From the NCBI GenBank assembly GCA_013821605.1, contig JACDGP010000022.1, positions 1 to 53,752 of the forward strand: 53,752 nt of DNA, written 5' to 3'. The position numbers were made by a program, and so were the translations under genes. Source of the DNA: Herpetosiphonaceae bacterium. GTDB lineage: Bacteria > Chloroflexota > Chloroflexia > Chloroflexales > Kallotenuaceae. The notes under the pieces were generated by a model that saw only the letters and a program-made list of their open reading frames with translations, did not search any database and was not told where the DNA came from. Shown here one piece after another: positions 2-53,354 of this stretch (position 1 is its first letter; the number at the start of each line of letters is the position of its first letter).

Positions 2-2491
2 GCTCAGTTGACGCTGCTGACCTATGATGACCTACACCGCCGCGTCTTGCAGTGGGCCGATCGAGCCTGGAAGTGGCTTTGGCCCAGACTGCAGTTCATG
101 GCTTTACCGGCGCTCCATCACGCTAGGGGTGCGACGGGTGGTCATGTGCTTTGGCTGGTACGGCGGGTTGAGCGGCTGGTTGGCCCGGTGCAACTGCTGG
201 TAGCACTTGCGCCAGTCGCCGGCGCAGATAGCACCTTACCACGCTTGCTTGGTCACTCCATGCGGCTGATTGCAGCGGGCAGCGGGCCGACAACTTCGAC
301 ATTGGTTGCCTTATGGCATACCGGTGCCGACCGGCAGGCAACGCTGCGGCAGATCGTAGCGGGATTGAGCCGGCATCAGCTGGCACTTACGGTACTAGGA
401 CGTGATCATAGCGAAACAGCGGCGCTCGAAGCCAGCTTTCAGGCAGAGGTTGCCGTGGGGAGTGGTCCCGAGGTCGCACGCATCGCGTTGGTAGCAGGGG
501 TGCCCGCGTTCGAGGATGACCGCCAGCGTTTGTTGCGCGCGGGCTACCGGCTGATCCTTTTGCTAGCCGGGGATACGCCATACGAGCGGCTGCTGCTAGC
601 CCAACCGGAGCTATTGGGACAAACGTTACCGGCATGGCCACTCCCACGGGCGAATCGCTTGATTAATGTAGCTGAACTCATGTGTGTAGCCAGCGAGCGC
701 CCAATCAGCGCGACTGAGGTTGAGGATTGGCAAGTTGCGGATCACGTGCGGAAACTTACCGAGCAGGGGCAACTCCAGCCACTCGCCACAGATGGAGAGT
801 GGCAACCGGCAGCGGTCGTGAGCGATCCCTATGAACGGATTGATCCACATGCGGTACGGGGGCAAGCGATTGGGGTCGTTGATGCGAGCGGTGATGCCTG
901 TGGCCATGTTACACCGGGTGTGGCCGAACGCTGGGGGCTGGTCGGCGCAGTTTGGTCACCGGGCCGCGTGGTTGAGAGTTCGGGCAAGGTGGAGGTGATC
1001 CTGGCAGCGACCGGTGAAGATCATGCGACATGGCCGGTCGAAGTGGTCCGGGTGGTCGTACGCGACGAGCTCGCGAAACGTAGCCTGCAATGGAAGCAGC
1101 ATCGCTTGGAGCTACGGCGTATTACCGTCCATGCCAATGCCCGCGTCCGGGGACTGATCGAGCTATGGCCAGGGCAGCAACCACGCGAAGTGCCGGTAGC
1201 ACGCACAGTGGAGCGGCAATGGGAAGCTGTAGCATTGGCATTGCCGGCCGAGATACCGGAGGGGCATCTGGCAGCCGGTTGGGCGCTGCTCGCAACGCTG
1301 CCGGTGGTTGTCAATAGCAGCCCTGGTGCTTTGCTGCCCTGGTATGACCGAGCACAGGCCCAGCTGCTGCTGATCGAAGTCGATCCGGGGGGTGTAGGGC
1401 TGGTTGAGGCGCTGTATACGCAAATGGAGCGTTGGCTTGAGCTGGCTCAGCAATTGGCCCAGGCGTGTGCGACATATTCTTTGTATGCGCCGTTCGCCGC
1501 TCCCGAGTTGCAGTGGCTCCAAGCCTTAAAACTCCCAGCAGTACGGCCGGTCGCTGCCAGGGAACAGGTTCCCGTCAAGGAGATGGTGGCGCGGACAGCG
1601 GCAGCGACCGTGGAACACAAGCCGCAAGGAGAGGTGGCCACGCCACTACCACAGCGTGCGCCAGAAGTGCCGCAGGAGGCACGACGACGGGGGCCAGTGG
1701 TTCGAACATATAGTATGCCGGCTTCTGCCGTTCCGTCGGTTGCGCTTGCGGTACCACAGGTTCCGCCGGAGCTTGAGAATGAGCGATCGGACGTAATTAT
1801 GAGCAGCCCGGTAGCGCAGACGGAATTGCCTATGGAAGTGGATGCACCCTTGGCGGTGGCTGAGCCGAAGCCAAGGGTGGAGCAGGTTGATGACATTGCC
1901 TGGGGGCTCGATGCCCCCGCTGGGCCTGAGGCGGTCGAAGATATAGCTTGGGAAGTGGATGTTCCACCACCACTGGCGTTTCCGACGATCCAGCGTGCGC
2001 CAGTGGCTAGCCGTGAGCCGATGCGTCGCTCCACGCCACCGCGCTATCCACCGTCACGGCCAGTCGCACTGCCACCGCGTCAGGTGCCCCCTGCGAACAA
2101 CGGGGTGCCAACACGTAACGAAGTGCGGCGTGATATTGCACCGGACAGGCCACCGGTTGAGGAACGGGCGGGCGATGTAGGCGGGATGATCGCGCGGCTT
2201 CGACAGCTACGCACCACCCGTGATAGCGGAGCAGAAGGTAGTGATACGCCAGCACGTGGCACCAGGCTGCCTGACGAGCCCGTCGAGCCGCGCTTTAAGC
2301 GTGGTGACCGAGTACAATGTGTGCCCTATGGTGAAGGACGTGTGGTTGAAAGTGTGGTTATTGGCGGACGTGAACAGCTACGGATCGACTTCGGAGAAGA
2401 CGGGATCATCGAAGTCGATCCGGTCATCAGTCTCGTCCGACAGGTCAAGCAAGCACAGATAGCCACCAGTGAGGAGGAGCTTAGCGACTGA
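2..2491 (+). CDS. Degenerate MrfA/YprA-like DEAD/DEAH helicase, C-terminal part (5' end outside window)
   Basis: The reading frame is open to the window edge; the first start-like codon (TTG at 8) need not be the true start. Counting from base 8 (827 codons), the first ~500 residues follow the second half of MrfA-type helicases, including the late region ending in DPGGVGLVEALYTQMERW that matches the DUF1998 module. The motor is inactivated. Where active proteins have DEVH followed by YRGVFGSHV, this one reads PALH then HARGATGGHV (residues 34-47), so both acidic Walker B residues are lost. Motif III SAT is replaced by LAP, and the GRAGR arginine finger is reduced to LRAGY. The Zn-binding cysteines of DUF1998 are missing. 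Residues ~510-750 are Pro/Ala-rich linker. Residues ~765-815 (FKRGDRVQCVPYGEGRVVES) resemble the Tudor-like tail of PcrA/UvrD, which binds RNA polymerase. I infer a non-motor DNA- or polymerase-associated protein. Family assignment is fairly sure; function is unknown. Confidence 0.6.
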   Translation, partial: AQLTLLTYDDLHRRVLQWADRAWKWLWPRLQFMALPALHHARGATGGHVLWLVRRVERLVGPVQLLVALAPVAGADSTLPRLLGHSMRLIAAGSGPTTSTLVALWHTGADRQATLRQIVAGLSRHQLALTVLGRDHSETAALEASFQAEVAVGSGPEVARIALVAGVPAFEDDRQRLLRAGYRLILLLAGDTPYERLLLAQPELLGQTLPAWPLPRANRLINVAELMCVASERPISATEVEDWQVADHVRKLTEQGQLQPLATDGEWQPAAVVSDPYERIDPHAVRGQAIGVVDASGDACGHVTPGVAERWGLVGAVWSPGRVVESSGKVEVILAATGEDHATWPVEVVRVVVRDELAKRSLQWKQHRLELRRITVHANARVRGLIELWPGQQPREVPVARTVERQWEAVALALPAEIPEGHLAAGWALLATLPVVVNSSPGALLPWYDRAQAQLLLIEVDPGGVGLVEALYTQMERWLELAQQLAQACATYSLYAPFAAPELQWLQALKLPAVRPVAAREQVPVKEMVARTAAATVEHKPQGEVATPLPQRAPEVPQEARRRGPVVRTYSMPASAVPSVALAVPQVPPELENERSDVIMSSPVAQTELPMEVDAPLAVAEPKPRVEQVDDIAWGLDAPAGPEAVEDIAWEVDVPPPLAFPTIQRAPVASREPMRRSTPPRYPPSRPVALPPRQVPPANNGVPTRNEVRRDIAPDRPPVEERAGDVGGMIARLRQLRTTRDSGAEGSDTPARGTRLPDEPVEPRFKRGDRVQCVPYGEGRVVESVVIGGREQLRIDFGEDGIIEVDPVISLVRQVKQAQIATSEEELSD

Positions 2492-8893: not shown

Positions 8894-11458
8894 CTAGACC
8901 AGCCGGGGTACCCGTGGCAGGATGGCGGCGACGACCTCATAGTTGATGGTGCCGAGCCAGCCTGCGACCTCTTCGGCAGTGATGCAATCGGTGCCTTGTG
9001 GGCCGATCAATACCACCTCCGTACCGACGCGCACGCCGGGTATATTTGTTATGTCGATCATTGTATAGTCCATGCACACGCGACCCGTGATCGGCGCCCG
9101 CCGGCCGTTGACCAAGACGGCCTGCCAGGCCGGGGAACGGCGAAAGCCGTCGGCATAGCCGATCGGGATGGTCGCGATGGTTGAGGGCCGGGGTGCCTGC
9201 CAGGTGGCACCATAGGAGACCGGAGCACCGGCGGGCAGGGTTTTGATTTGGGCTATCTCAGTTTTAAATTGGAGAGCCGGTCGGAAGCCGGCGGGACAGG
9301 GGGTTTCGTTTGAGGGCGAAAGGCCATACAAACAGATGCCAGGTCGTACCAAATCATAGTAGGCCTGCGGATAGCGCAAGATAGTGGCGCTATTGGCCGC
9401 ATGGACGAGCGGTGGCCGTAAACCAGCAGCAGTAATATCTTGCAGGACGGCATCGAAGCGTCGCAGTTGTATTTGAGCGAAGTGGGGATCGGCGCTGTCA
9501 GCGGTTGCGAGATGTGTGAATATGCCCACAACGTCGATGCCAGGCAGGTCATGAAGGAAATGGAGGAACGCGGGAGCTTCGTCGAGAGCCAGTCCCAGAC
9601 GCGCCATGCCCGTATCGACCTTGACATGCACGCGGGACGTCCGTTGTAACTCCTCGGTGGCGATCGAGATTTCGCGGGCCACGTGTGCATCCCAGAGTGC
9701 GAGCTCCACATTGTAGCGCAGGGCATCGCGAACTTGCCAGGGCGGTGTGTAGCCGAGGATCAGCAGCGGGGCTCCAATACCGGCATTGCGCAGAGCCATC
9801 GCCTCACCCAGCGTCGCAACGGCCAGATGAGTTGCGCCATGCTGCAAAACGGTACGGGCGACGGGAAGTGCGCCATGACCATAGGCATCGGCTTTGAGCA
9901 CGGCCATGATTTTCCGTTCAGCGCCAACGATGTGCCGGAGTTGTTCAGCATTATGTGCGATGGCTCCCAGATCGATCTCAAGCCATGTCGGGCGGTCGGC
10001 TTCGGCTACGCGCACTTTTTCCCAGGCCGCTTCTTGGCGCACCAGCACAGCCGGGACATTGACCGTAGGTGGTAGCAGCCCCGCGACAATTTGCTCCATG
10101 CGCGCCGCCGCAGAGCCTTTGACCAGCACCAGATCGCCGGGCCCTAGCTGCGGGCGGAGGAAGGCCAGCGCGTCGGCGTTGGTCGCCTGGATGTTGAAGC
10201 GCGAGAGCGACTGCACTGAGTTAGGGTGAGGAGGCACGAATTGGGCGGCCAGATCACCGACCGTCAGCACCAAATCACAGACGGATGCTGCTGTTACTCC
10301 CAGCGCTTGATGCCAGTGCGTGCTTTGCTCACCTAGCTCTAGCATCGGACCCAGCACCGCAATGCGGCGCCGAGCAGGAAGTGCGGCCAGCGTACGGAGA
10401 GCCGCTTCCACTGATCGTGGCGAGGCATTATAGCTATCATCAATGATCGTGCTACCGTGCAGACCGGGCAACGGATTGAGGCGACCGGCTTGCCGCTCGA
10501 TCAACGGAAGGCGTGCTACGGCCTGGGCACATGGAAGACCACAGCATAGGGCTACGGCGATAGCGGCAAGGGCTGCGTACACGGTATGTTCGCCGACGAA
10601 CGGAACAGTCGCCGGATAGACGGCGGCGTCATAGTGCAGGTCAAAGCACGTACCGTCCAAGGTGACCGTGATATTGGTGGCAGAGAGGATAGGGAAAGGC
10701 GAGCGTGGGAGCTTGCATTCGTCAACGAGTTCGGGAGCACAGCTATACCAGAAGATGGATGCAGCCGTCTGCTCGGCCATCGCTCTGACCAGGGGATCAT
10801 CGGCATTTAGCACAGCATAACCATCCGGCGGCAGGGCAGCGACCAGCTTGCATTTTTCTTGCGCAATGTGCGCTTCGTCGCGCAAGTAGTGCAAATGCGT
10901 TGGCGCAACGTTGGTGACCGCTGCGATGTGGGGAGGAAACAGGCTCGCCAACCGTTCCATCTCGCCAAAGCGGTCAACGCCCATCTCCAGCACAGCCCAG
11001 CGTTGCTCAGGCAGGAGATGGGCAAGAGTCAGTGGCAAGCCAAGGAGGGAGTTAAACGAGCGCCGTGAACTGAAGACCGGCCCGAGCGCACCAAGCACGG
11101 TGGCAATCGCGCGTTTGGTGCTGGTCTTGCCAACACTCCCGGTCACACCGATCACGTGCGGCGCATAGCGCTGCAGCCGTGAGCTTGCCCAGCGCTGCAA
11201 GGTGGCCCGGACATCCGCCACCTGGATCATCGTCACGGCTACGCCCGCCTCCGGCTGTGAGCACAAGACGCCAGTACAACCACGCGCAAGCGCATCCCTA
11301 ATAAACGCATGGCCATCACGACGTTCGGTCCGAAGCGCGACGAAACATTGACCCGGTTCAGCAAGGCGCGAGTCGTAGCACCAATCCGCAAAGGTGTGTT
11401 CAAAAACCGGCCCACACAGCGTGCCACCTGCCTGGAGGAGTTCGTCGAGTTCGATCAT
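8894..11458 (-). CDS. murF-alr: Bifunctional MurF (UDP-MurNAc-tripeptide:D-Ala-D-Ala ligase) / alanine racemase
   Basis: This 854-residue fusion joins two consecutive steps in supplying D-alanine to peptidoglycan. Residues 1-~455 are MurF, the ATP-dependent ligase that adds D-Ala-D-Ala to UDP-MurNAc-tripeptide. It shows the P-loop GVTGSVGKT (104-112, Lys111) and DDSYNASPRS. Residues ~480-854 are alanine racemase, a PLP enzyme: Lys522 in AVLKADAYGHG binds PLP, and VKVDTGMARLG and the catalytic-Tyr region SYGATWQ are present. Similar fusions are known in Bacteroidetes. I chose the ATG at 11458; an upstream ATG at 11500 would add 14 unconserved residues. No Shine-Dalgarno precedes 11458, but a TACAAT box ends 6 nt upstream, which would give a leaderless mRNA. 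Confidence 0.95.
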   Translation of the reverse strand: MIELDELLQAGGTLCGPVFEHTFADWCYDSRLAEPGQCFVALRTERRDGHAFIRDALARGCTGVLCSQPEAGVAVTMIQVADVRATLQRWASSRLQRYAPHVIGVTGSVGKTSTKRAIATVLGALGPVFSSRRSFNSLLGLPLTLAHLLPEQRWAVLEMGVDRFGEMERLASLFPPHIAAVTNVAPTHLHYLRDEAHIAQEKCKLVAALPPDGYAVLNADDPLVRAMAEQTAASIFWYSCAPELVDECKLPRSPFPILSATNITVTLDGTCFDLHYDAAVYPATVPFVGEHTVYAALAAIAVALCCGLPCAQAVARLPLIERQAGRLNPLPGLHGSTIIDDSYNASPRSVEAALRTLAALPARRRIAVLGPMLELGEQSTHWHQALGVTAASVCDLVLTVGDLAAQFVPPHPNSVQSLSRFNIQATNADALAFLRPQLGPGDLVLVKGSAAARMEQIVAGLLPPTVNVPAVLVRQEAAWEKVRVAEADRPTWLEIDLGAIAHNAEQLRHIVGAERKIMAVLKADAYGHGALPVARTVLQHGATHLAVATLGEAMALRNAGIGAPLLILGYTPPWQVRDALRYNVELALWDAHVAREISIATEELQRTSRVHVKVDTGMARLGLALDEAPAFLHFLHDLPGIDVVGIFTHLATADSADPHFAQIQLRRFDAVLQDITAAGLRPPLVHAANSATILRYPQAYYDLVRPGICLYGLSPSNETPCPAGFRPALQFKTEIAQIKTLPAGAPVSYGATWQAPRPSTIATIPIGYADGFRRSPAWQAVLVNGRRAPITGRVCMDYTMIDITNIPGVRVGTEVVLIGPQGTDCITAEEVAGWLGTINYEVVAAILPRVPRLV

Positions 11459-11464
11459 GGGGGG

Positions 11465-11470
11465 ATTGTA
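11465..11470 (-). promoter_or_regulatory. Possible -10 box giving a leaderless murF-alr transcript
   Basis: On the minus strand TACAAT ends 6 nt before the murF-alr ATG, so transcription would begin at or next to the start codon. No clear -35 element was found. Confidence 0.35.
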
Positions 11471-11507
11471 GCAGGCTTCATATGACAGGCAGCAGAGCAT
11501 GGACAGG

Positions 11508-14067: not shown

Positions 14068-17000
14068 ATGAAGATCGACTATCGTAAAGCTCCTGGCTTA
14101 GCTCTGCTGCTGAGCTTGCTGCTCGTCGCTCTTGCACCGTTTTCGACGCCACGAAGCCTGGCCGCCGTTCGCCCCCACTCCTCGACGCCCACCAGCGTGA
14201 CATTGGCAGGCAGTCTTGAGGACCAAATCACCGGTTGTGGCGTTTGGGATCCCGCCTGTGCAGCCGCCCATCTGACTGACATGGGGAATGGGGTGTGGCG
14301 CGGCGAATGGTCGATTACAGCCGGCAGCTATGCGTATAAGATGGCGCTGAACGATAGCTGGACCGAAAGCTATGCGGGTAACCATCAGGATGGCGGCGGT
14401 AACACGACGCTGGTCGTACCCACGACCCAAAATGTGCGCTTCTACTTCGATACGAAGACCAATGCTGTCGAGGACAGCATTATGGATCAGGTGGCAGTCG
14501 CGGCAGGTACGTTTCAAAGTGAACTTGGCTGCTCCGCTGATTGGCTGGCAGACTGTGTCCGCAGTTTGCTCACTGACCAGGATGGCGACGGTACCTATGC
14601 TTTCGAGTCGGCAGCGATTCCGGTCGGAACCTACCAATTCAAGGTTGCCCTGAACGAAGCGTGGGACGTCTCGTATCCAGCCAATAACGTGGCCTTCTCG
14701 GTCACGACGGCAGGTCAAAACGTCCGAATTACCTGGAACAAAACCACCAATGCGGTGACGGTCACCGCCGGCCATGGTCACGACAATAACGTGGAGTACG
14801 CCGGACTAAGCCACGACACACGCAACAGTTTGTATCGCGTGCCGTTCGGGGCCGTTAATCCGGGGACGGCCGTGATGCTACGCTTGCGCACCTTCCACAA
14901 CGATGTGACCGGGGTTGTGATCCGCTTGTATGACACAGCGGTCGGGCAAGAAAATAAGCAACCGATGGTGCTGGCAGCCACCAATGTTGATTGCTTCGAT
15001 GCTGCACTGACAGCCAGTGGGTCAACCTGCGACTATTACCAGTATGTGTACACGCCGCAAGCGCTTAGCACGGTTTATTACCGGTTCATCATCAGCGATG
15101 GCAGTGCAACGGCCTACTATGCCGATACGGATAATCGCTACGATGGACTGGGTGTGGCGACGTCGACTGAGATAGATAACGGCTTCCGCTTGAACGTGGT
15201 CGATCCCAACTTCAAGATCATTCCATGGATGCAGAACGGAGTCATGTATCAGATCTTCCCCGACCGCTTCCGCAACGGTACTACGAGCAATGATCCTAAT
15301 CCCACCGACTTCCGCTATGATTATCCGGCGCCGCCGAACCCTTCACCGCAGCAAATCCAGGCTGCTGCCGATGCGCAGATTCAAAACCGACCGTGGACGG
15401 CACTGCCCGAAGGCTACTGCGTGGCCTATGTCAATCCCGCAACTCCCTGTACCGAGACACCGAAGGGCCGCGACTATTTCGGTGGCGATCTCAAGGGCGT
15501 GGATGATAAGCTCGATTATCTTAAGAGCGTCGGCATCAGCGTTGTTTACTTCAACCCAATCTTTGAGTCGGGGTCGAACCATGGCTATGATACGCGCGAT
15601 TACCTCACGATCAGCCGCTACTTCGGCAGCAACGCTGACTTTACCAAGCTGGTAAGTGATGCCAGCGCACGCAACATGCGCATCGTCCTGGATGGGGTCT
15701 TCAACCATCTGTCGTCGGATAGCCCCTTCTTCGACCGCTACCATCACTACACCTCGGTAGGTGCCTGCGAAAGCTTCGACTCGCCCTACCGCTCATGGTT
15801 CGTTTTCCATGATGTTGCGCCGGGGGCCGGCCCATGCGTCGGCAGCGACGCCAACCATTCCGCTACCTATGATGGCTGGGCTGGCTTCGACTCGATCCCC
15901 GTGATCGTGAAACGGAGCCCGACCGATCCTAACCAGCCGTACCAGCCGGTCGCGCAGTATTTCTATGCCGACCCACAAAACAGCGTTGCAGGCTATTGGC
16001 TGCACCAGGGTAGTTCGGGCTGGCGCTTCGACGTGATGACCGATCCATCGTTCCCACCGTCCTACTGGCAGCAACTGCGCACCATCACCAAAGGGATCAA
16101 GCCCGACGAGATTTTGATCGCCGAAGCATGGCATTGGTACGACGTTCTGCCGTTGACACATGGCGATCAGGCTGACACCGCTATGGGCTATCGCTTCCGC
16201 GATGCGGTGCTGGGGCTATTGGGCGCGGTCGATAACAAGGGCTTTCCGCAAGAGAACGATCCGAACCTGCCGCCATCGACCTTCGCAACGCGGATGAGTT
16301 CGATACGAGAGGATTATGCGGACGCAACCTACTATACGTCCCAGAATCTGTTGGACAGCCACGACACCAAACGTATCTTGTGGAGCCTCACACCGGGACA
16401 GGATAATCGCGAGGATAAAGAGTTCAACGCGGCAAATTTGGCAGTAGGCAAGGCGCGCGAAGCCGTTGCGGCGACGGTGCAAATGACGGTACCGGGCACG
16501 CCCTCGATCTATTATGGCGATGAAGTCGCATTGACGGGTGCCGATGACCCAGACGACCGGCGTACCTTCCCCTGGAACCAGAATCCGACCGCCGGCGACA
16601 AGCCAGCGAGCAACAGATTCTATTTTGGCGCGGGCGGTGATCATGCCTTGCTTGATCTCTACCGCCAACTAACAACAATTCGTCGCGACCACCACGTCCT
16701 ACGGCAGGGCAAGCTGACATTTTTGTTGACGGATGACACCAACAAGACGCTGGCATATGCTCTGCGCGATGGGAATACGCTGGCCACGGTCGTTATTAAC
16801 CGAAATGAAAGCGTGGCGCAAACGATCAACGTCCCAACGGCAGGCTACCTGCGGGATGGGGTGACGTTGAAGGATGTGCTCACGCCCAGCAATCCGGCGG
16901 TCACCACCGCAGGCGGGAAGTTCAGCGTGACCTTGCCGCCGTTGGGTGCAGCGATCCTGGTGATGCCGGTTGGCCAAGACATTACGGGCCCACTCGTCAC

Positions 17001-18630
17001 GCCGTTGCTGACGGCGACCGCCAGTAATGGCGTGACGAGCAGCGTTATCCTGAAGTGGAATGCGAGCCCCCAAGCGACGAGCTACAACGTGTATCGTAGC
17101 CCGGTGCAGGGCGGTGGCTATGTCAAGATCGCGACAACCCCGAGCGTGGCGTATAACGATGCGACAGTCCATAATGGCACGACCTACTATTATGTCGTGC
17201 GTGGCGTTGATGCGCTGGGCAACGAAGGCAACCAATCGCGGGAAGCGAGTGCGACACCAGCTTTCCCGATCGGCTATGCCGTGCTGCAATATCCCAAGAC
17301 TGTGAATCAGGTGATCAGCGCTACGCCAGTCACCGTGTATGGCCAATTTTATATCCAAGGGTTGACCGATGCGGGAGGGGATCCTAGCGCGATTCAGGCC
17401 CAAGTTGGCTTCGGGCCTTTTGGCACGGCATACACAACCTGGAACTGGCAGCCGATGACATTCAACGCGGCCCACGGTGGCGACAACAATTACGAGTATA
17501 TGGGCAACATTCGGGCCGATACACCGGGGACCTACAACTATCTCGTGCGCTTCTCGGATGATGGCGGACGGACGTGGGTTTATGGCGACCAGAATGGGGT
17601 GGGTACGGCACAGCCGGGCGTGATGACGATCACGGCGAGCAGTGATCATACTGCCCCGACCACACCGGTTGCTGCCATCGACTGGAGCGCGACGAGCTTA
17701 ACGGTCAGTTGGACGGCGTCGACCGATCCGGATGACGCGGTTGCCGAGTACCACGTCTACCGTGGCACGACACCTGGCGGCGAAAGTACAACGCCCATCG
17801 CAATCGTACCCGGCACGGTCACGAACTATGTCGACACTACCGTTGGCAATGGCCAGACGTACTACTACGTTGTCAAAGCCTACGACACTGCGCTCAATGC
17901 GTCGCCCGCATCGAATGAGGTGGGTCATATGGTGACGGCCAAGCTGATTCATACGACCTTCAAGGTGAAGGTCCCAACCTGGACGCCGGCGGGAGACACG
18001 ATCTACATTTCCGGCTCACCCGACCCATTGTGCAACTATTGCGGTGGTGGGACGCCGGCAACGACGATGACGGAGACAGCACCCGGCTCGCACATCTGGC
18101 AGATCACGATTGATATCGCGGATGGCACACCGATCCAATACAAGTACACGCGCGGGAACTATAACTACGTCGAAGAGTGGGGTTCAATCACCGGCCTCAC
18201 GAATCGTGTCGCTACCGTGCATGCTAATAGCCCAAGTGATCAAACGCAACTATTTGATGACACGAGCGATACAAACCCCGACGATAACCACAAGGCCGTT
18301 CAAAACTGGCGGGATGCGATCGTGACCGGCACTACGCCCAGTAATGGCGCGACAGGAGCAGCACCAGCTACGATCAACGTGACGTTCAACTGGGATGTTA
18401 AGCCAGAAGGTACCGATTTCAGCAACGCCATCACGGTCACGAAGACAGGCAGTGCTGTCACCGGCACCATCAGCCACGATAGCTCATCGCAATCGCTGAC
18501 CTGGACACCGGCGTCATCGTTGACGAGTGGTACATACAGCGTGACGGTCGATCACGTTGTTTCGGTTACTCCCACCAACGATGGGATCAAGATTCGCACG
18601 CCTTACACGTTCAGCTTCACGGTCAACTAA
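14068..18630 (+). CDS. Secreted multidomain GH13 alpha-amylase / amylopullulanase
   Basis: The 1520-residue exported starch-degrading enzyme has a signal peptide (~1-33). Two X25-type pullulanase modules follow (about 45-135 and 145-235), each with the pattern GxYxxKxALNxxW. Next come an N-terminal CBM34-like module (~240-380) and the GH13 barrel (~390-860). Catalytic residues are Asp655 (WRFD), Glu686 (LIAEAWHW) and Asp766 (DSHDTKR); the N-terminal barrel motif DGVFNH is also present. The tail has a fibronectin III module (~985-1070), an unrecognised beta domain (~1075-1185), a second fibronectin III module (~1195-1280), a CBM20-like starch-binding module (~1290-1390) and a C-terminal Big_5-type Ig fold. 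There is no LPXTG or SLH anchor, so it is probably released. It has its own promoter and is monocistronic. Alpha-1,4 versus alpha-1,6 specificity cannot be fixed from sequence. Confidence 0.93.
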   Translation: MKIDYRKAPGLALLLSLLLVALAPFSTPRSLAAVRPHSSTPTSVTLAGSLEDQITGCGVWDPACAAAHLTDMGNGVWRGEWSITAGSYAYKMALNDSWTESYAGNHQDGGGNTTLVVPTTQNVRFYFDTKTNAVEDSIMDQVAVAAGTFQSELGCSADWLADCVRSLLTDQDGDGTYAFESAAIPVGTYQFKVALNEAWDVSYPANNVAFSVTTAGQNVRITWNKTTNAVTVTAGHGHDNNVEYAGLSHDTRNSLYRVPFGAVNPGTAVMLRLRTFHNDVTGVVIRLYDTAVGQENKQPMVLAATNVDCFDAALTASGSTCDYYQYVYTPQALSTVYYRFIISDGSATAYYADTDNRYDGLGVATSTEIDNGFRLNVVDPNFKIIPWMQNGVMYQIFPDRFRNGTTSNDPNPTDFRYDYPAPPNPSPQQIQAAADAQIQNRPWTALPEGYCVAYVNPATPCTETPKGRDYFGGDLKGVDDKLDYLKSVGISVVYFNPIFESGSNHGYDTRDYLTISRYFGSNADFTKLVSDASARNMRIVLDGVFNHLSSDSPFFDRYHHYTSVGACESFDSPYRSWFVFHDVAPGAGPCVGSDANHSATYDGWAGFDSIPVIVKRSPTDPNQPYQPVAQYFYADPQNSVAGYWLHQGSSGWRFDVMTDPSFPPSYWQQLRTITKGIKPDEILIAEAWHWYDVLPLTHGDQADTAMGYRFRDAVLGLLGAVDNKGFPQENDPNLPPSTFATRMSSIREDYADATYYTSQNLLDSHDTKRILWSLTPGQDNREDKEFNAANLAVGKAREAVAATVQMTVPGTPSIYYGDEVALTGADDPDDRRTFPWNQNPTAGDKPASNRFYFGAGGDHALLDLYRQLTTIRRDHHVLRQGKLTFLLTDDTNKTLAYALRDGNTLATVVINRNESVAQTINVPTAGYLRDGVTLKDVLTPSNPAVTTAGGKFSVTLPPLGAAILVMPVGQDITGPLVTPLLTATASNGVTSSVILKWNASPQATSYNVYRSPVQGGGYVKIATTPSVAYNDATVHNGTTYYYVVRGVDALGNEGNQSREASATPAFPIGYAVLQYPKTVNQVISATPVTVYGQFYIQGLTDAGGDPSAIQAQVGFGPFGTAYTTWNWQPMTFNAAHGGDNNYEYMGNIRADTPGTYNYLVRFSDDGGRTWVYGDQNGVGTAQPGVMTITASSDHTAPTTPVAAIDWSATSLTVSWTASTDPDDAVAEYHVYRGTTPGGESTTPIAIVPGTVTNYVDTTVGNGQTYYYVVKAYDTALNASPASNEVGHMVTAKLIHTTFKVKVPTWTPAGDTIYISGSPDPLCNYCGGGTPATTMTETAPGSHIWQITIDIADGTPIQYKYTRGNYNYVEEWGSITGLTNRVATVHANSPSDQTQLFDDTSDTNPDDNHKAVQNWRDAIVTGTTPSNGATGAAPATINVTFNWDVKPEGTDFSNAITVTKTGSAVTGTISHDSSSQSLTWTPASSLTSGTYSVTVDHVVSVTPTNDGIKIRTPYTFSFTVN

Positions 18631-29034: not shown

Positions 29035-29116
29035 GCTGGTAAGACGCCATCCCTCAAATCCTTTAATTTGTGCTATGCTTCCTCGCAATCCTTTCGTAAC
29101 CTAAACAGGAGTGCGT

Positions 29117-32100
29117 ATGCCGCTGATCCTGACCTTGCGCCGTGATGCCCCCGATCGCGCGACCGCTCTGGTCGGCGATTCGGTATTGCACAGCTTCGAT
29201 CCGCTAGCGTTACGTTCCTTTGAGCCTGCATCCAAGGAGCAGCCAGTCCCAAAAGAGCCCGTGGCCTATGGCAAGCGCTTGTTTGCCGCACTCGGGGGCG
29301 AGGAACTCAAACGGCTGCTACCCAAGAAACTTGCGCCCAATCTTGACAGCCTGATTGCCCTCGAAAGTTCTGACTTGGAGCTCATGGCGATTCCGTGGGA
29401 ATATGTGTATGGACCCGCTGGCTTCCTGATCCTGGACTATCTATTTATACGCTCCGTCCCAGACGCTCCCTTGCCAGATGATCCGCGCCCTGACCAGCCT
29501 TGGCGTTTGGTTGCGTTAGGCAGCGATCCGGTGTTGGCAGAGGTCCGGGATCCGAACGACAAGCTGTTGGGCTTTGCTCCAATGCTTCCGCTGCGGGTGG
29601 TCGCGGAGTTGGATGACTTGAGCAAGAGCTTAACAGCATACCAGCCGCCACTTCCCCTACGCTGGCAACGTCTGGCCCCGACGCAGAACGCCCTGATCAA
29701 CCTGAATACCGGCGATGAGCCAATCATCCTGCACTATACGGGTCATGGTGATGTCATAGCAGGTGAGCCGTATTTGTGTTTCGATGACGGCACGGGCATG
29801 ATGGAGCCGGAACCGGTGCGCGACCTAGCGGCAGAACTCCGTGAGCGGACCTACCTAGCATTCTTTAACGCCTGCCGTACTGCGGACGTGACTGAGCCGG
29901 GTGCGAACCTTGCGTTGGCGCTGGTACAGGGCGGGATTCCAGTGGTGGTTGGGACACAATTCACGGCACAGGACAATGCTGCCGCACCCTTTGCATGGAC
30001 CTTCTACCAACACCTCGTGAGCAACGGACCACTCATCGCGCTGTGGCGCGCTCGTCGCCAACTCAAAACGCTTTATCCCCATGATCCCGGCCAGTGGGGC
30101 ATTCACACACTATATCTTGCCGCAGGCTATCAATGGCCACAACGACAGATGCGCGTTGAGCAGCCGCTCCAGCCGCTCGATGGACCGCCGTTCAATATCC
30201 TCGCCTTGCAAGCACCGGCAGTCGTGTTAGGTCGCCACCACGAGCTGCACGATCTAGCCACCTTGTTTGTGCACGATCATAAACAGATTGTGACGATTCT
30301 GGGTCCGGGAGGCATGGGTAAAACAGCGTTGGCGAGTGCTGTTGCACAGCGGCTCCGCTTTCACTTTCCAGGAGGGGTCTTTGCAGTATCGCTGGTCTTA
30401 CCCGAAGCCAATGCCTCCCTCAGTGCAGCCGCCATTCGTCGTCAGATTGCCGAGCTACTGGGGGCGTTGGATGCAAGCTTTGAGGATCCTACGGCTGCGC
30501 ACGCACAAGAAGAGGCGATCCTCCGAGTCCTGCAAGGCCGTCAGCGTAGCTTGCTGATCTTCGACAATTATGAAACCGTTTTGTGGCTGCTAGGGAAAGA
30601 GCCCATCGAGGGGGAAGGCGCTCCCAAGCCGGCACAGTGGAGCGAGGCAGACGCAGTTCAGCGCCTGGTGACACGTTTAGCAAAAGCCCAGACGCATCTG
30701 TTGTTTACATCCAGGCAGGCACCCGTTGGCTTGGCTAACGAAGTTACCTATCCGCCTCGAAAACAGCAACTAGGTGGCCTGGAGCGTGAAAGCAGCAACG
30801 AGTTATTCAAGCAAAATGTCGGTGAACGATCAGCAAATGAGACCTTTCGTGACGCGGTTGCGGAGAAGGTCGGTGATAGCCCGCTGGCAATCATTCTTGC
30901 TGCGAAGCGCTGGAGCACGGGTCACCTAGCGGAAGCGGACTTTCTTCAACATATTGTCGATGAGTTGATCCTGGCTGAACAGCAGGGGGTACCGGAGAAT
31001 CAGCGCTCAGCACTCGCTAACGTCCGATTGTCGATCAACGACCTCACTGCTGACAGGCGACAAGACTTCCTAGCACTTTCGATCGTCGGCAACCCAATGA
31101 TCCAGCCAATGCACGGCGCAGTGGTTTGGGGCCTTGAGGACGAGCAGCAATGGTTTACGGAGCAGGCGCACGAGCGACTCCAGGAGTTCTGTGATCGCTC
31201 GCTGCTACAGCCGATCTTACGTGACGTGCAGTTGATGGTCGATGAGCAGCAGAACCGAGCACTCGCCTATAGCCTCCAGCCAGTCATTGCGCAGGTTGCG
31301 GGGCATCTTGCCAAAGCGGACGGGCCGCTGCTCGAAGAACCACAGGCTCGCTATGCTCGTTGGGCAGAAATGAAGGTGAATCGCGCATTCGGAAAAGGAG
31401 GAATGAGTTTCAAGCCGGAGATTGCGCGTGAAATGCAGGTGATGCTACCTGATTTACAAGCCGCATTACCGCATTTGCCCCTTGAGCAACGAGGATGGGC
31501 AGCTTGGAGAGCGGCTGATGCTGCTTATAACCTCGGTCGCCCAGATGTGGCAGATAGAATGCTGCAACTTGGCGAAGACACAGCACGGGAAGCCGAAGAT
31601 CGCATATTGGAAGGGCGTCTGAAGGTTGTACAGGGAAAACAGGCTGTGCTCAGAGGAAACTTAGATGACGCCATTCAGCACTACCAAACGGCCTTGACGA
31701 TTATTGATGGATTAGACGATCAGCTGGGTGAGCGGGCCGTTATCATGAGCCAAATGGCCGGGGTGCTGGTGACGCGCGGCGACCTCACTGGGGCTATGGA
31801 ACTCTACCAGCAGTCCTTAGCAAGCCACGAAAGCATCGGCAATGTCCAAGGCAAAGCCGCGACCCTTGCGAATATGGCGATCCTTCAATGGCGACAAGGC
31901 GCGCATGAGGTTGCACTCAGCAATATCCGCGCAAGTCTGCGACTCCTTGAACGAGTGGGAGCGGTACGCGAGGTTGAACAGGTACGTCGCATCCTTGCGA
32001 AGATGGAAGGCGCGGTCCAAGTAGACACACCAGACGGCTTGTCGCCGGGCCAGCTTGCTGGGGCATTGGTAGCTGCAACGACACGTGCATTACGGGGACA

Positions 32101-33247
32101 ACTATCACGTGATAAGGTGCGTGAGGATCTCGTGGGATTGCAGGTTGACGAGGTGCTAACAGCGTACATCAATGGGCTGGTGGACGTGCTCGATGGGAAG
32201 GGTACGGTAGGGGCGTTGCTGAGCGCGGTGGAGCAAATACTGCAATCTGCAATGCCAGCCGAGCGAGCCAGTGTATATCGAGGAATCAGTAACGTTGCCG
32301 ACGAAATTGGCGACGTTGAAGGGGAAATTAAGGCACGCCAGCAAGCTATAGCAGTACAGCGCCAGGTGGGCGAGGACCGTGAGAATTTAGTTGAATTGAG
32401 CGTGATGCTGTTTAACCTTGCAACTACGTACGCCGGGCAGGGACAGCACGCGATGGCAGTTCCTCTGCTTGAAGAGGTGGTGGCACTGGATGAGCGCAAT
32501 CAGCATCCTGATCTTGAATCAGATCGGCAGGCGCTAGAAACAGCACGGCAGCGGGCGGGTGGAGCACCGAAGCAGACCTTGCGCGATGTCATTGAGAAGT
32601 GGAAGCACGACCAGGATAAGGACGAGTTAGCGAAGCTGATCAACGCAATTTGCAATGTTGTCATCGATGTCGTGCGCGATGGTGACACAGTCTTACGTAG
32701 TCAGGTTGCCGAAGATTTATCAGCCCTACGGATGGTGCGTCCACTGCCGCTTCCGGGAGCCAATGATTTCCTCCATGCCTTACAATTGATGTTGCGCGAC
32801 CAGCCGGGGATGGCAGAACGAGCAGCACAGGTGCGGGCGGTCTTGCCAGAGGGGTTTGCCCGAGTGCTGGTGACGATGGAGCGGATGATTGCAGGCGAGA
32901 GCACGGAAGATGAGGCTGAGGAAGAGCCGGAGGAGGAAGAAGCCCTCGCCAACCTTTCACCCGAGCAGCGACGCGAGATGCAGGTCTTGGCCCAAGTGTT
33001 TCCGGCTTTCGAGCAAGCTGCTCAGAGCCTGCACGATCCGAAGATTACGTTTGTGCAACGCATGGAAGCAGCAAAGCAAGTCGATGGTATGGCAACCAAA
33101 GCCGCCGAAGGTGAAGAACTGGGATCGCCGTGGCTTGATGCAGCGGCAGGATTACGGGGGTTAGCTACGCTATTACGAGGTGGCACACCTGACATTGCGG
33201 CATTGGGGCCGGTGTATCGCAAGCTGTTGGAAGATGTGAAGGGATGA
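29117..33247 (+). CDS. CHAT protease - NB-ARC-like STAND NTPase - TPR protein with novel C-terminal domain
   Basis: The 1376-residue protein has four parts. (1) A CHAT caspase-like domain (~1-330) with the catalytic dyad His210 (HYTGHGD) and Cys253 (FFNACRTA). (2) An NB-ARC/STAND ATPase (~370-700) with Walker A GPGGMGKT (396-403), Walker B LLIFDN (Asp483) and sensor LLFTSRQAP. (3) Tetratricopeptide repeats (~790-960 and ~1050-1150). (4) A C-terminal domain (~1153-1376) homologous to the separate 227-residue protein just upstream. The architecture is that of NLR-like proteins in which repeats sense a ligand, the NTPase oligomerises and the CHAT protease is unleashed; several CHAT-STAND proteins are antiphage. 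Function here is inferred. ATG at 29117 has AGGAG 5 nt upstream. It is followed closely by a zinc-ribbon gene and a membrane-protein gene. Confidence 0.88.
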   Translation: MPLILTLRRDAPDRATALVGDSVLHSFDPLALRSFEPASKEQPVPKEPVAYGKRLFAALGGEELKRLLPKKLAPNLDSLIALESSDLELMAIPWEYVYGPAGFLILDYLFIRSVPDAPLPDDPRPDQPWRLVALGSDPVLAEVRDPNDKLLGFAPMLPLRVVAELDDLSKSLTAYQPPLPLRWQRLAPTQNALINLNTGDEPIILHYTGHGDVIAGEPYLCFDDGTGMMEPEPVRDLAAELRERTYLAFFNACRTADVTEPGANLALALVQGGIPVVVGTQFTAQDNAAAPFAWTFYQHLVSNGPLIALWRARRQLKTLYPHDPGQWGIHTLYLAAGYQWPQRQMRVEQPLQPLDGPPFNILALQAPAVVLGRHHELHDLATLFVHDHKQIVTILGPGGMGKTALASAVAQRLRFHFPGGVFAVSLVLPEANASLSAAAIRRQIAELLGALDASFEDPTAAHAQEEAILRVLQGRQRSLLIFDNYETVLWLLGKEPIEGEGAPKPAQWSEADAVQRLVTRLAKAQTHLLFTSRQAPVGLANEVTYPPRKQQLGGLERESSNELFKQNVGERSANETFRDAVAEKVGDSPLAIILAAKRWSTGHLAEADFLQHIVDELILAEQQGVPENQRSALANVRLSINDLTADRRQDFLALSIVGNPMIQPMHGAVVWGLEDEQQWFTEQAHERLQEFCDRSLLQPILRDVQLMVDEQQNRALAYSLQPVIAQVAGHLAKADGPLLEEPQARYARWAEMKVNRAFGKGGMSFKPEIAREMQVMLPDLQAALPHLPLEQRGWAAWRAADAAYNLGRPDVADRMLQLGEDTAREAEDRILEGRLKVVQGKQAVLRGNLDDAIQHYQTALTIIDGLDDQLGERAVIMSQMAGVLVTRGDLTGAMELYQQSLASHESIGNVQGKAATLANMAILQWRQGAHEVALSNIRASLRLLERVGAVREVEQVRRILAKMEGAVQVDTPDGLSPGQLAGALVAATTRALRGQLSRDKVREDLVGLQVDEVLTAYINGLVDVLDGKGTVGALLSAVEQILQSAMPAERASVYRGISNVADEIGDVEGEIKARQQAIAVQRQVGEDRENLVELSVMLFNLATTYAGQGQHAMAVPLLEEVVALDERNQHPDLESDRQALETARQRAGGAPKQTLRDVIEKWKHDQDKDELAKLINAICNVVIDVVRDGDTVLRSQVAEDLSALRMVRPLPLPGANDFLHALQLMLRDQPGMAERAAQVRAVLPEGFARVLVTMERMIAGESTEDEAEEEPEEEEALANLSPEQRREMQVLAQVFPAFEQAAQSLHDPKITFVQRMEAAKQVDGMATKAAEGEELGSPWLDAAAGLRGLATLLRGGTPDIAALGPVYRKLLEDVKG

Positions 33248-50609: not shown

Positions 50610-50675
50610 GGGCTCACAGGCTCGACACATATCGATTACAATTCAGCCTGCTCGCGCTTGATGGTGGGCAGACGA

Positions 50676-53354
50676 ATGGACAATATGAGCGGAGATTCAG
50701 CCGCGAAGAGCCTAGTGCATCCAGGACACAATGGCCTGGTCAGCTTGCCACATCCACGCACGCCGTTGATCGGTCGCGACGAGGAGTTGGCTACTGTGCG
50801 CGGCTTACTCCTGCGGGACGACGTCGGCTTGTTAACGCTGACCGGACCGGGTGGTGCCGGCAAAACGCGTCTGGCCGTCCAACTTGCCCATGATGTGCAA
50901 GCGACGTTCGCTGACGGTGTGGGATTTGTGTCATTGGCACCCGTGACGGAGCCTGTACTCGTAGGTGCCATGATCGCCGGTGCATTGGGGATGACCGAAG
51001 TTGCCGGCCACCAGATGGTCGATCAACTGCGCGAGCACCTGGCCGACCGGCAAGTGCTGCTGGTCCTGGATAGCTTTGAGCGGGTGCTGCCGGCCGGTGC
51101 GTTGGTGGCTGAACTCTTACGTGCGTGTCCACGTCTTAAAGTGCTGGTAACGAGTCGTAGTCCGTTGCAGCTCTACGGTGAGCAGGATTTCCTCGTCCCA
51201 CCCTTGACGTTGCCGGACACAGAGCACCTGCCAACCACCGAACATCTTGCAGAATACCCCGCCATCCAGCTTTTCGTTGAGCGTGCACAAGCGGCACAGG
51301 CTGATTTCGCCCTAACGGACGCCAATGCAACAGCCGTGGTTGAAATTTGCGCTCGACTTGACGGGCTACCGCTAGCGATTGAGCTGGCGGCGGCGCGTAT
51401 CCGCCTGTTTACGCCACAGACCCTGCTGGCACGGCTCGACCGGCGCCTGCCACTTCTAACGGGTGGAGCGCGCGATCTGCCCATGCGCCAGCAAACACTG
51501 CGCGGCACCATCGACTGGAGCTATATGCTGCTCAGCGATGATGAGCAGCGCTTGTTCGCGCGACTCGCGGTCTTCGTAGGCGGGTGGGCACTGGAGGTAG
51601 CCGAAGCAGTGTGCGGGCATATACAGGGACCGGAGGCGACCCGCATCGACGTGCTGGCAGGTACACAGTCGTTGTTAGACAAAAGCCTCATTCGGCAGGG
51701 GGAAAGCCTCAACGGTGAATTACGGTTTAGCATGCTGGAAACGATCCGCGAGTATGCACTTGAACGGCTAGAGGCGAGCCCTGGGATGGATGAAACGAAG
51801 CGGCTCCACGCTGCCTATTATCTCGCGCTGGCCGAAGCAGCGGAACCGGCCCTGCGGGGCAAGGAGCAGCTCGACTGGTTTGAGCGGTTGGAGCGGGAGC
51901 ATGATAACCTGCGAGCTGCGTTGGACTGGTATGTTGCCAGCGGCGAGCTTGAGACAGCACTACGGATGGGAGCGGCACTGGCATGGTTCTGGTATCTGCG
52001 TGGCCATCTACGTGAAGGGCGAGAGCGGTTAACGGACCTGCTGGCCCGGGTGGGCGTCGACTTAGCCCAATTGGAGGTCGAGCAGCCGAGCGGCAGCCAG
52101 TACTTGGCGAAGGTCCTCTTCGGTACCGCCTTGATCTTTGGTCCACGCTATCCCCAGAGTGATGCTACGACGACCTCGCTGTTAGCTGCCAGCGTGGCTA
52201 TCTTCCAAGATCTCGGGGATGCTCTCGGTCTCGGCGTTGCGCTTGGACAGCTCGGCGTGCATGGCTGGGGCGACAAGGAGACGGATGCAACCTCAATTGA
52301 TGGAAGCAAGTCGCTCTTCCGGCAGTTTGGCGATAGGTGGGGTGAGGCCTTAGCCCATGTCTGGCAGAGTGAGGCGGCGGCTCGCCGTGACGACCTACAA
52401 GCAGCTCACATGCATGCCGAGCAGGGACTGCGCTTGTTTCAGGAGTTGGGCGACCGCTGGGGCATCTCCTTTGCGCGGCAGCAGTTGGCCTGGATCATGT
52501 ACCTCCATGATGATCCCACTCTCAAGCACCACCCTGCAACGGAACGGCTGGAGCCGTTGCGCGAAGCGGGGGACCAAGCAGGCATTGCAGTCGCGCTCAA
52601 TCATCTGGCAAATGCACTGCGCTGGCGCGGCGATTATGAGCGTGCTGCGTTAATCTATGAGGAGTGCATCACGCTGTACCGCGACCTCGGGCTCAAGCCC
52701 GGCCTGGCAACGGCATTACATGGCCGTGGCTATGTGGCCCTATGGCAAGCCAGCCTACCGGAAGCTGAGCGCTTGTTTCATGAAAGCTTGCGCTTGTTCT
52801 TGAACCTGGAGCACATGGACGGGATCGCGTGGTGCTTCCATGGACTGGCCGGCATTGCAGGATCATTGGGAGTCCAGGGTGCCGGGCGTGCGGCACGTCT
52901 GCTCGGAGCGGCTGAAAAGCTCACCTTACCGGTAGCAGAGTGGGGCCCAGAGCCGGCTGCCGAATACGAGCGCGTCGTCACCTCAGCACGCACGCAGCTT
53001 GAGCCGGCAGTCTGGAGTGCTGCCTGGACCGAGGGACAGGCGCTGGCACTGGATGATGCGCTGGCCTATGCCGTCGAGCCTTTTCTTGAGACGCCGGAGC
53101 CCACCGCGGCGCTCATAGTGCCTCCCGCGCCAGTCGTCGAGACCAACGTGCGCAGCTACCCCGCAGGGCTCAGCGAGCGGGAAGTCGCCGTGCTGCGACT
53201 GATCGCCCAAGGGCTCACCTATGCCGAGATTGCCCAACAGTTGATTATTAGCCCGCACACGGTCAACGCCCATCTACGCAGGATCTACAATAAGCTCGGC
53301 GTCACCTCACGCAGTGCTGCAACACGTTTTGCCGTTGAGCATGAATTGATCTAG
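50676..53354 (+). CDS. LuxR-family transcriptional regulator with NB-ARC/AAA ATPase and TPR domains
   Basis: This ~892-residue STAND-type regulator starts with an ATPase (~30-300) with Walker A GPGGAGKT (57-64), Walker B LLVLDSF and sensor [14 protein letters not shown] winged-helix linker region and tetratricopeptide-like repeats (~400-760) follow. A C-terminal LuxR helix-turn-helix (~832-890) has [20 protein letters not shown] and [13 protein letters not shown]. The ATPase and repeats sense an unknown ligand, then the HTH binds DNA; proteins of this type are common in Chloroflexota and actinomycetes. ATG at 50676 is preferred (GGTGGG 7 nt upstream); TTG at 50658 and ATGs at 50661 and 50685 are alternatives. 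It has no clear co-transcribed partner. Confidence 0.9.

Follow-up and report, generated by a model that had tools for sequence, protein, structure and literature searches.

The gene that opens the window (the whole stretch of DNA analysed here, 53,752 nucleotides from a Herpetosiphonaceae bacterium) encodes a protein that resembles an MrfA/YprA helicase and lacks the motifs of its motor. The question it raises is whether such a gene is in decay or has been conserved for a function other than that of a motor, and, if the latter, what that function could be.

Gene structure and predicted fold

Positions 2–2491 of the plus strand form a single open frame of 829 codons (827 counted from TTG), which is open at its 5' end because the contig begins there. 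A second contig of the same genome (C7 of the 259 contigs of G000) overlaps the first 173 bases of the window with one mismatch and supplies 141 further N-terminal residues from an ATG; the frame joined across the overlap encodes a 970-residue protein with the N-terminus MATIADMLRQL. The uninterrupted frame described in the first-pass annotation is thus confirmed, with its 5' end cut by the contig edge. On C7, the hexamer TACAAT lies six bases upstream of the ATG (L003 612–595, minus strand) and no ribosome-binding site stands out clearly; the mRNA of this gene may therefore be leaderless. A plasmid search gave no match. In NCBIfam and Pfam, the window protein has no matches other than TIGR03817 (helicase; E 2e-15, far under the cut-off) and MZB (under the cut-off; Table 1).

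A full-length AlphaFold2 model was made of the Roseiflexus orthologue L131 with 22 relatives, while the window protein was modelled for its tail. The L131 model (mean pLDDT 82; linker at residues 673–769 disordered) contains the RecA1-RecA2-OB/CON-MZB fold, and MrfA is its best match: the first four PDB matches in Foldseek are MrfA chains (best E 2e-40), and VIA-align gives a Z of 29.1 to MrfA 6znp over 578 residues, with the next family, Lhr, at 21.2. A profile search of the PDB sequences likewise found MrfA at E 8e-44. The claim that the fold landmarks of the MrfA/YprA family have been kept is supported by these matches of a predicted fold. The domains are listed in Table 1, where the OB/CON names follow PMC12458937.

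Table 1. Features of the pseudohelicase gene, in window coordinates unless another contig is named
Feature	Position	Strand	Basis
First 141 codons, with lost Walker A	contig C7 (L003), ATG at L003:595	minus	translation and contig overlap
Remainder of degenerate RecA1	2..298	+	translation, contig overlap, alignment to active MrfA paralogues
Motif Ib-like TYDDLH, RecA1	20-37	+	alignment
Motif II remnant ALPALHHARG, RecA1	101-130	+	alignment
Motif III remnant LVALAPVAG, RecA1	197-223	+	alignment
Degenerate, shortened RecA2	299..652	+	alignment, orthologue model
Motif VI remnant RQRLLRAGYR, RecA2	521-550	+	alignment
Helical/winged-helix-like region	653..943	+	alignment, orthologue model
OB/CON-like beta-rich part of MrfA canopy	944..1258	+	alignment, orthologue model
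MZB (DUF1998)-derived domain, without most zinc cysteines	1259..1543	+	Pfam MZB E 0.0023, cysteine counts
Long Pro/Ala-rich linker	1544..2173	+	predicted disordered in orthologue
Short basic helix before tail, DVGGMIARLRQLRTT	2174..2218	+	family alignment, orthologue model helix 772-793
C-terminal PcrA/UvrD-type Tudor domain	2288..2446	+	hhalign, AlphaFold2 model, Foldseek
Acidic C-terminal end and stop codon	2447..2491	+	translation

Compared with the SF2 helicase MrfA/YprA (DUF1998) of B. subtilis (PDB 6znp, 6znq, 6zns), the pseudohelicase has the same domain order and predicted fold (residues 3–671 of the L131 model), but it is without the ATPase motifs and most of the zinc cysteines, its RecA2 is shortened, and a long linker and a Tudor tail have been added. 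The long Pro/Ala linker that had been reported from the window is indeed present, and the basic helix that follows it is found across the family in the alignment. Within the linker of the window protein, at 1880–1960, are two DDIAW/EDIAW repeats; they were seen in no other locus (33 mapped) and were therefore set aside.

Loss of the motor and conservation of the gene

Motifs were counted in 32 orthologues (L042 and L069 being left out of 34 loci) that had been aligned together with 19 active MrfA-type paralogues from the same phylum. Twenty such paralogues were found, with DExH in all 20 and Walker A in 19, the exception being the N-truncated L109, which was left out. The alignment shows that, at the level of sequence, motifs I, II, III, V and VI and most of the MZB zinc cysteines have been lost across the family. 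The Walker A lysine is present in 0/32 orthologues and 19/19 active paralogues, and the Thr/Ser position is Thr in a single orthologue. On C7 the Walker A region upstream of the window reads ALMGHGAVPHDDLL, with no GK[ST], and the row of the window protein in the alignment has MGHGAVPHD at Walker A and LPALHH at motif II; the question of whether Walker A is also lost, left to the upstream sequence by the first-pass annotation, is thereby answered. That annotation had also described a motif II without its two acidic residues and eroded SAT and GRAGR motifs, and both descriptions hold. Motif II of the window protein is LPALHHAR, in place of the DExH of the active paralogues, and the motif II Asp and Glu are retained in 0/32 and 1/32 orthologues, respectively (19/19 active paralogues for each). 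Motif III is LAP in place of SAT, and motif VI is LLRAGYR in place of QxGRAGR; across the orthologues the first Arg of motif VI is found in 10/32 and the second in 3/32, each being present in 19/19 active paralogues. The motif V Asp is retained in 2/32 orthologues, motif Ia looks degenerate (as judged by eye from the alignment), the Q-motif position is Gln in 25/32, and RecA2 is shortened. The cysteines of DUF1998, said to be gone, are mostly so: the first MZB Cys is found in 6/32 orthologues, Cys at +0 in 13/32 and Cys at +9 in 0/32 (29 gaps), but the window protein still has a single Cys, in CATYS. An intact motor elsewhere in the protein was ruled out by the upstream sequence and the motif counts.

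In a first search of 60 relatives the gene was found in 59, including 51/51 genomes of good quality. A profile search of 81 genomes from the order gave matches at E 1e-10 or better in 80 (56/56 of good quality), a count that alone mixes orthologues with active paralogues; these are separated by the count of orthologue-level matches (230 bits or more), which is 75/81. Five of the 81 genomes have tail or N-terminal fragments only, and one genome, 76% complete, has no match. Among 400 genomes from the phylum the strong matches number 41, all in the same order, and no orthologue-level match was found beyond it, the best there reaching 142 bits; the sub-orthologue matches examined outside the order are active paralogues. 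The records that carry a name come from Roseiflexus, Oscillochloris, Chloroflexales and relatives.

For the tree and for the comparison of identity by domain, eight rows, mostly near-copies, were left out, leaving 25 pseudohelicases. In the unrooted tree a single branch (SH-aLRT 100) separates these from the 19 active proteins, and the pseudohelicase side spans four families with no active copy inside it. The pseudohelicases cluster mostly by family, which is the pattern that one loss followed by vertical inheritance would give.

The family is under purifying selection of a strength similar to that on active MrfA. By the Nei-Gojobori method, 14 pairs of relatives gave a dN/dS of 0.02–0.27 for the part from the motor to MZB (14/14 pairs at 0.27 or less), 0.08–0.45 for the linker and 0–0.36 for the Tudor domain, as compared to 0.09–0.19 in four pairs of active MrfA. 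These ratios, all well under 1, are those of relatives, since the window gene is too distant from its nearest relatives (about 40% identity) to have a direct estimate of its own. In the same five genomes, the mean identity of pseudohelicases versus active paralogues is 0.45 versus 0.70 in RecA1, 0.40 versus 0.66 in RecA2, 0.49 versus 0.62 in the helical region, 0.50 versus 0.63 in OB and 0.53 versus 0.69 in MZB; it is therefore lower in every domain, with the greatest fall in RecA1 and RecA2 and a smaller one in the canopy. The most conserved domain of the family is the Tudor domain, with a mean identity of 0.51, RecA2 being at 0.31.

It is almost certain that the motor is dead and the protein conserved. 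The presence of the gene nearly throughout the order, on one branch without an active copy, fits a conserved non-motor function rather than decay, as had been argued from the window alone and as the purifying selection also indicates.

The Tudor tail and its pocket

The C-terminus had been annotated as a PcrA-type Tudor-like tail that resembles a polymerase-binding domain, and the first part of this claim is well supported. A profile of 31 tails (in 3 of the 34 loci the pattern found no tail), searched against 12331 ORFs of the collected loci, recovered the family, then PcrA/UvrD tails only (E 2e-5 to 0.02) and then noise, and hhalign aligned it to a PcrA/UvrD profile without gaps (probability 97%, E 1.3e-10). 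For the AlphaFold2 model of the window tail (2279–2488; pLDDT 86), ranks 1–8 in Foldseek are all UvrD/PcrA Tudor domains, with Mfd and CarD next, and the top match in VIA-align is 5dma (Z 8.1), slightly ahead of other Tudor domains (7.2–7.4). Weak sequence matches of the tail to CarD in the PDB were also found, at E 0.26–1.8. At the curated cut-off of Pfam PF21196 the window protein is not among the matches, and the lone match in its genome is a different gene, an 815-aa frame on contig C123.

The likeness to a polymerase-binding tail stands only in part. In PcrA, H681, W684, K712 and L714 are required for polymerase binding (PMC5397179), and the same Lys (K727 in B. subtilis) has been invoked for UvrB too (PMC8318588). 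We placed these four positions, and the equivalence of K712 and K727, by counting residues along the tails with the numbering of the two papers as the starting point, and used for comparison 12 PF21196 loci, of which 9 PcrA-type tails were counted. The position of H681 is Cys in 31/31 tails of the family and that of K712 is Leu/Ile/Val in 31/31, while that of W684 is Y/F/W in 29/31 and that of L714 is Ile/Val in 31/31. The tail thus agrees with the PcrA/UvrD C-terminal Tudor (PF21196; PDB 5dma, 9dqs, 7egs) in profile alignment, fold and aromatic pocket positions, and differs from it in having Cys for His681 and Leu/Ile/Val for Lys712 and in being attached to another kind of helicase. The pocket has thus kept its aromatic and hydrophobic parts, and its polar parts have been replaced. 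With two of the four polymerase contacts replaced throughout the family the partner may differ, and with a pocket altered in this way PcrA-type binding to a TGE hairpin in its known form is unlikely. The strict helicase-interaction motif was found in UvrB in 5/7 genomes (a looser DPLTGE in 7/7) and in RpoB in 1/7 (TG[ED]-like strings in all 7); because the tail has lost the matching Lys, these counts name no partner.

In genome G389, the 926-aa protein L110 is an active MrfA-like helicase with a PcrA/UvrD Tudor tail (25.3 bits, over the Pfam cut-off). It belongs to the same helicase family as the pseudohelicases and its tail is of the same type, but its Walker A and DEVH are intact, and in the present tree it sits among the active proteins and is not sister to the dead branch. 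The combination of an intact motor with this tail makes a Tudor-tailed active ancestor of the pseudohelicases possible.

Possible roles of a helicase without a motor

On balance, we favour the explanation that the protein is an ancient non-motor adaptor derived from an MrfA helicase. ATP binding and hydrolysis would have been lost once in a branch of the MrfA/YprA (DUF1998) family, in or before the ancestor of the order, and the protein kept since. The RecA pair would now be a rigid scaffold, the OB/MZB canopy would still bind single-stranded or structured nucleic acid, and the Tudor domain, on its long flexible linker, would dock a protein partner through the aromatic pocket that it has kept. 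The result would be a stand-alone housekeeping adaptor that tethers machinery of transcription or repair to nucleic acid but does not itself translocate. Because the motor was lost long ago and the gene has been kept almost order-wide with its putative nucleic-acid-binding roof and docking tail, the protein is probably a scaffold and not a motor, and we lean slightly towards this mode of action. That the partner belongs to transcription or repair is plausible but less than an even prospect; with two of the four PcrA contacts replaced, the grip on it probably differs from that of PcrA, and the tail may bind RNA polymerase at a different site or some other protein. Against the adaptor stand the faster evolution of the canopy in pseudohelicases than in active MrfA and a gene neighbourhood that points to no pathway, and since the DNA-facing motifs Ia and V look degenerate, nucleic-acid binding is not assured. 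More tentatively, the protein could be a lineage-specific core factor exapted from a DNA-repair helicase: a nucleic-acid-binding clamp whose UvrD-type Tudor domain, with changed pocket chemistry, would tie it to some universal machine, for instance RNA polymerase or the excision-repair complex. Such a factor would matter for growth or for the stability of the genome across the order.

A precedent is the PriA pseudohelicase of Deinococcus radiodurans, which has lost its ATPase and keeps DNA and partner binding (PMC4504706). There, too, helicase activity was lost lineage-wide with other functions kept, although PriA is of a different helicase family and its role in replication-fork restart is known. 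To judge from the literature searched, pseudohelicases are seldom described in bacteria; the present one adds to a known family a new branch that is catalytically dead. In the passages considered from PMC12458937, which treats the YprA family in defence systems and DNA repair, 'inactivated' refers to nucleases, an RNase H fold and a GTPase, and no motor-dead YprA branch is mentioned; nor did we find a report of a motor-dead YprA/MrfA family in the open-access literature searched. That a dead helicase with a helicase-type docking tail is nearly universal and vertically inherited suggests a use for the MrfA architecture without its motor. The family is also well suited to showing what the canopy and the Tudor tail do alone, and active paralogues, some in the same genomes, are natural controls. 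Of the 20 active paralogues found, seven lie in six genomes of the order (G001, G002, G010, G013 (twice), G022 and G052).

A rather doubtful alternative is a role in transcription, as a factor akin to CarD, Mfd and UvrD. The Tudor domain would bind the beta subunit of RNA polymerase, and the dead helicase core would make contact with upstream DNA or RNA and so change pausing, termination or transcription-coupled repair. The order of the structural matches to the tail (UvrD/PcrA, then Mfd and CarD) and its weak sequence matches to CarD are consistent with such a factor, as is the binding of RNAP by the PcrA Tudor (PMC5397179, PMC8318588). However, a common fold is no proof of a common partner, and two of the four polymerase contacts are replaced in every tail of the family.

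We consider it unlikely that the protein is a non-catalytic subunit which stimulates or positions an active helicase or nuclease, as DrmB does with DrmA in DISARM. DrmB, which carries the OB-CON-DUF1998 part, forms a complex with DrmA (PMC12458937), and the canopy of the present family is kept better than its motor. However, across the 34 loci that could be mapped (of 35, L070 having given no match), there is no conserved neighbour or operon partner: neighbours are conserved among close relatives only and none is common across families, so the gene stands alone. Active MrfA was also not found in the window's own genome, which makes MrfA itself unlikely as a general partner. YprA-type defence systems have a patchy, mobile distribution. 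Membership in such a system (DISARM, ARMADA, Druantia) was ruled out by the lack of a shared operon, the occurrence in 75/81 genomes and the grouping by family. DISARM DrmAB and other YprA-family defence systems share the YprA-type helicase core and canopy with the pseudohelicase, but they are multi-gene systems (PMC12458937), whereas the pseudohelicase is one near-universal gene with no conserved operon.

A nucleotide-gated clamp, in which ATP is bound and not hydrolysed, would accord with the Gln that most orthologues keep in the Q-motif, but is highly improbable; retained ATP binding was rejected on the residue counts for Walker A (Lys and Thr), motif II (Asp) and motif VI (second Arg) in the 32 orthologues. 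Decay into a pseudogene, or an assembly artefact, to which the contig break across the window gene and stops within the matched stretch in three relatives (G059, G043 and G426) might point, has a negligible probability and was rejected for the family, as frames are open in nearly all the listed orthologues, dN/dS is far under 1 and the near-universal gene forms one branch across four families.

In G043, about 25 kb separates the motor part from the tail (C1:171598-173283 and C1:198045-198611), with a TAG in the match; this arrangement may be a split, a rearrangement or mis-scaffolding. Elsewhere in the window are a Mur ligase and an alanine racemase joined in a single frame (8894–11500, minus strand), a pullulanase-like amylase with X25, starch-binding and Ig-like domains (14068–18630), and two large NTPases, one of 1378 aa that joins CHAT with NB-ARC/NACHT and TPR repeats (29111–33247) and one of 898 aa of the NB-ARC/AAA type with a LuxR-type DNA-binding end (50658–53354).
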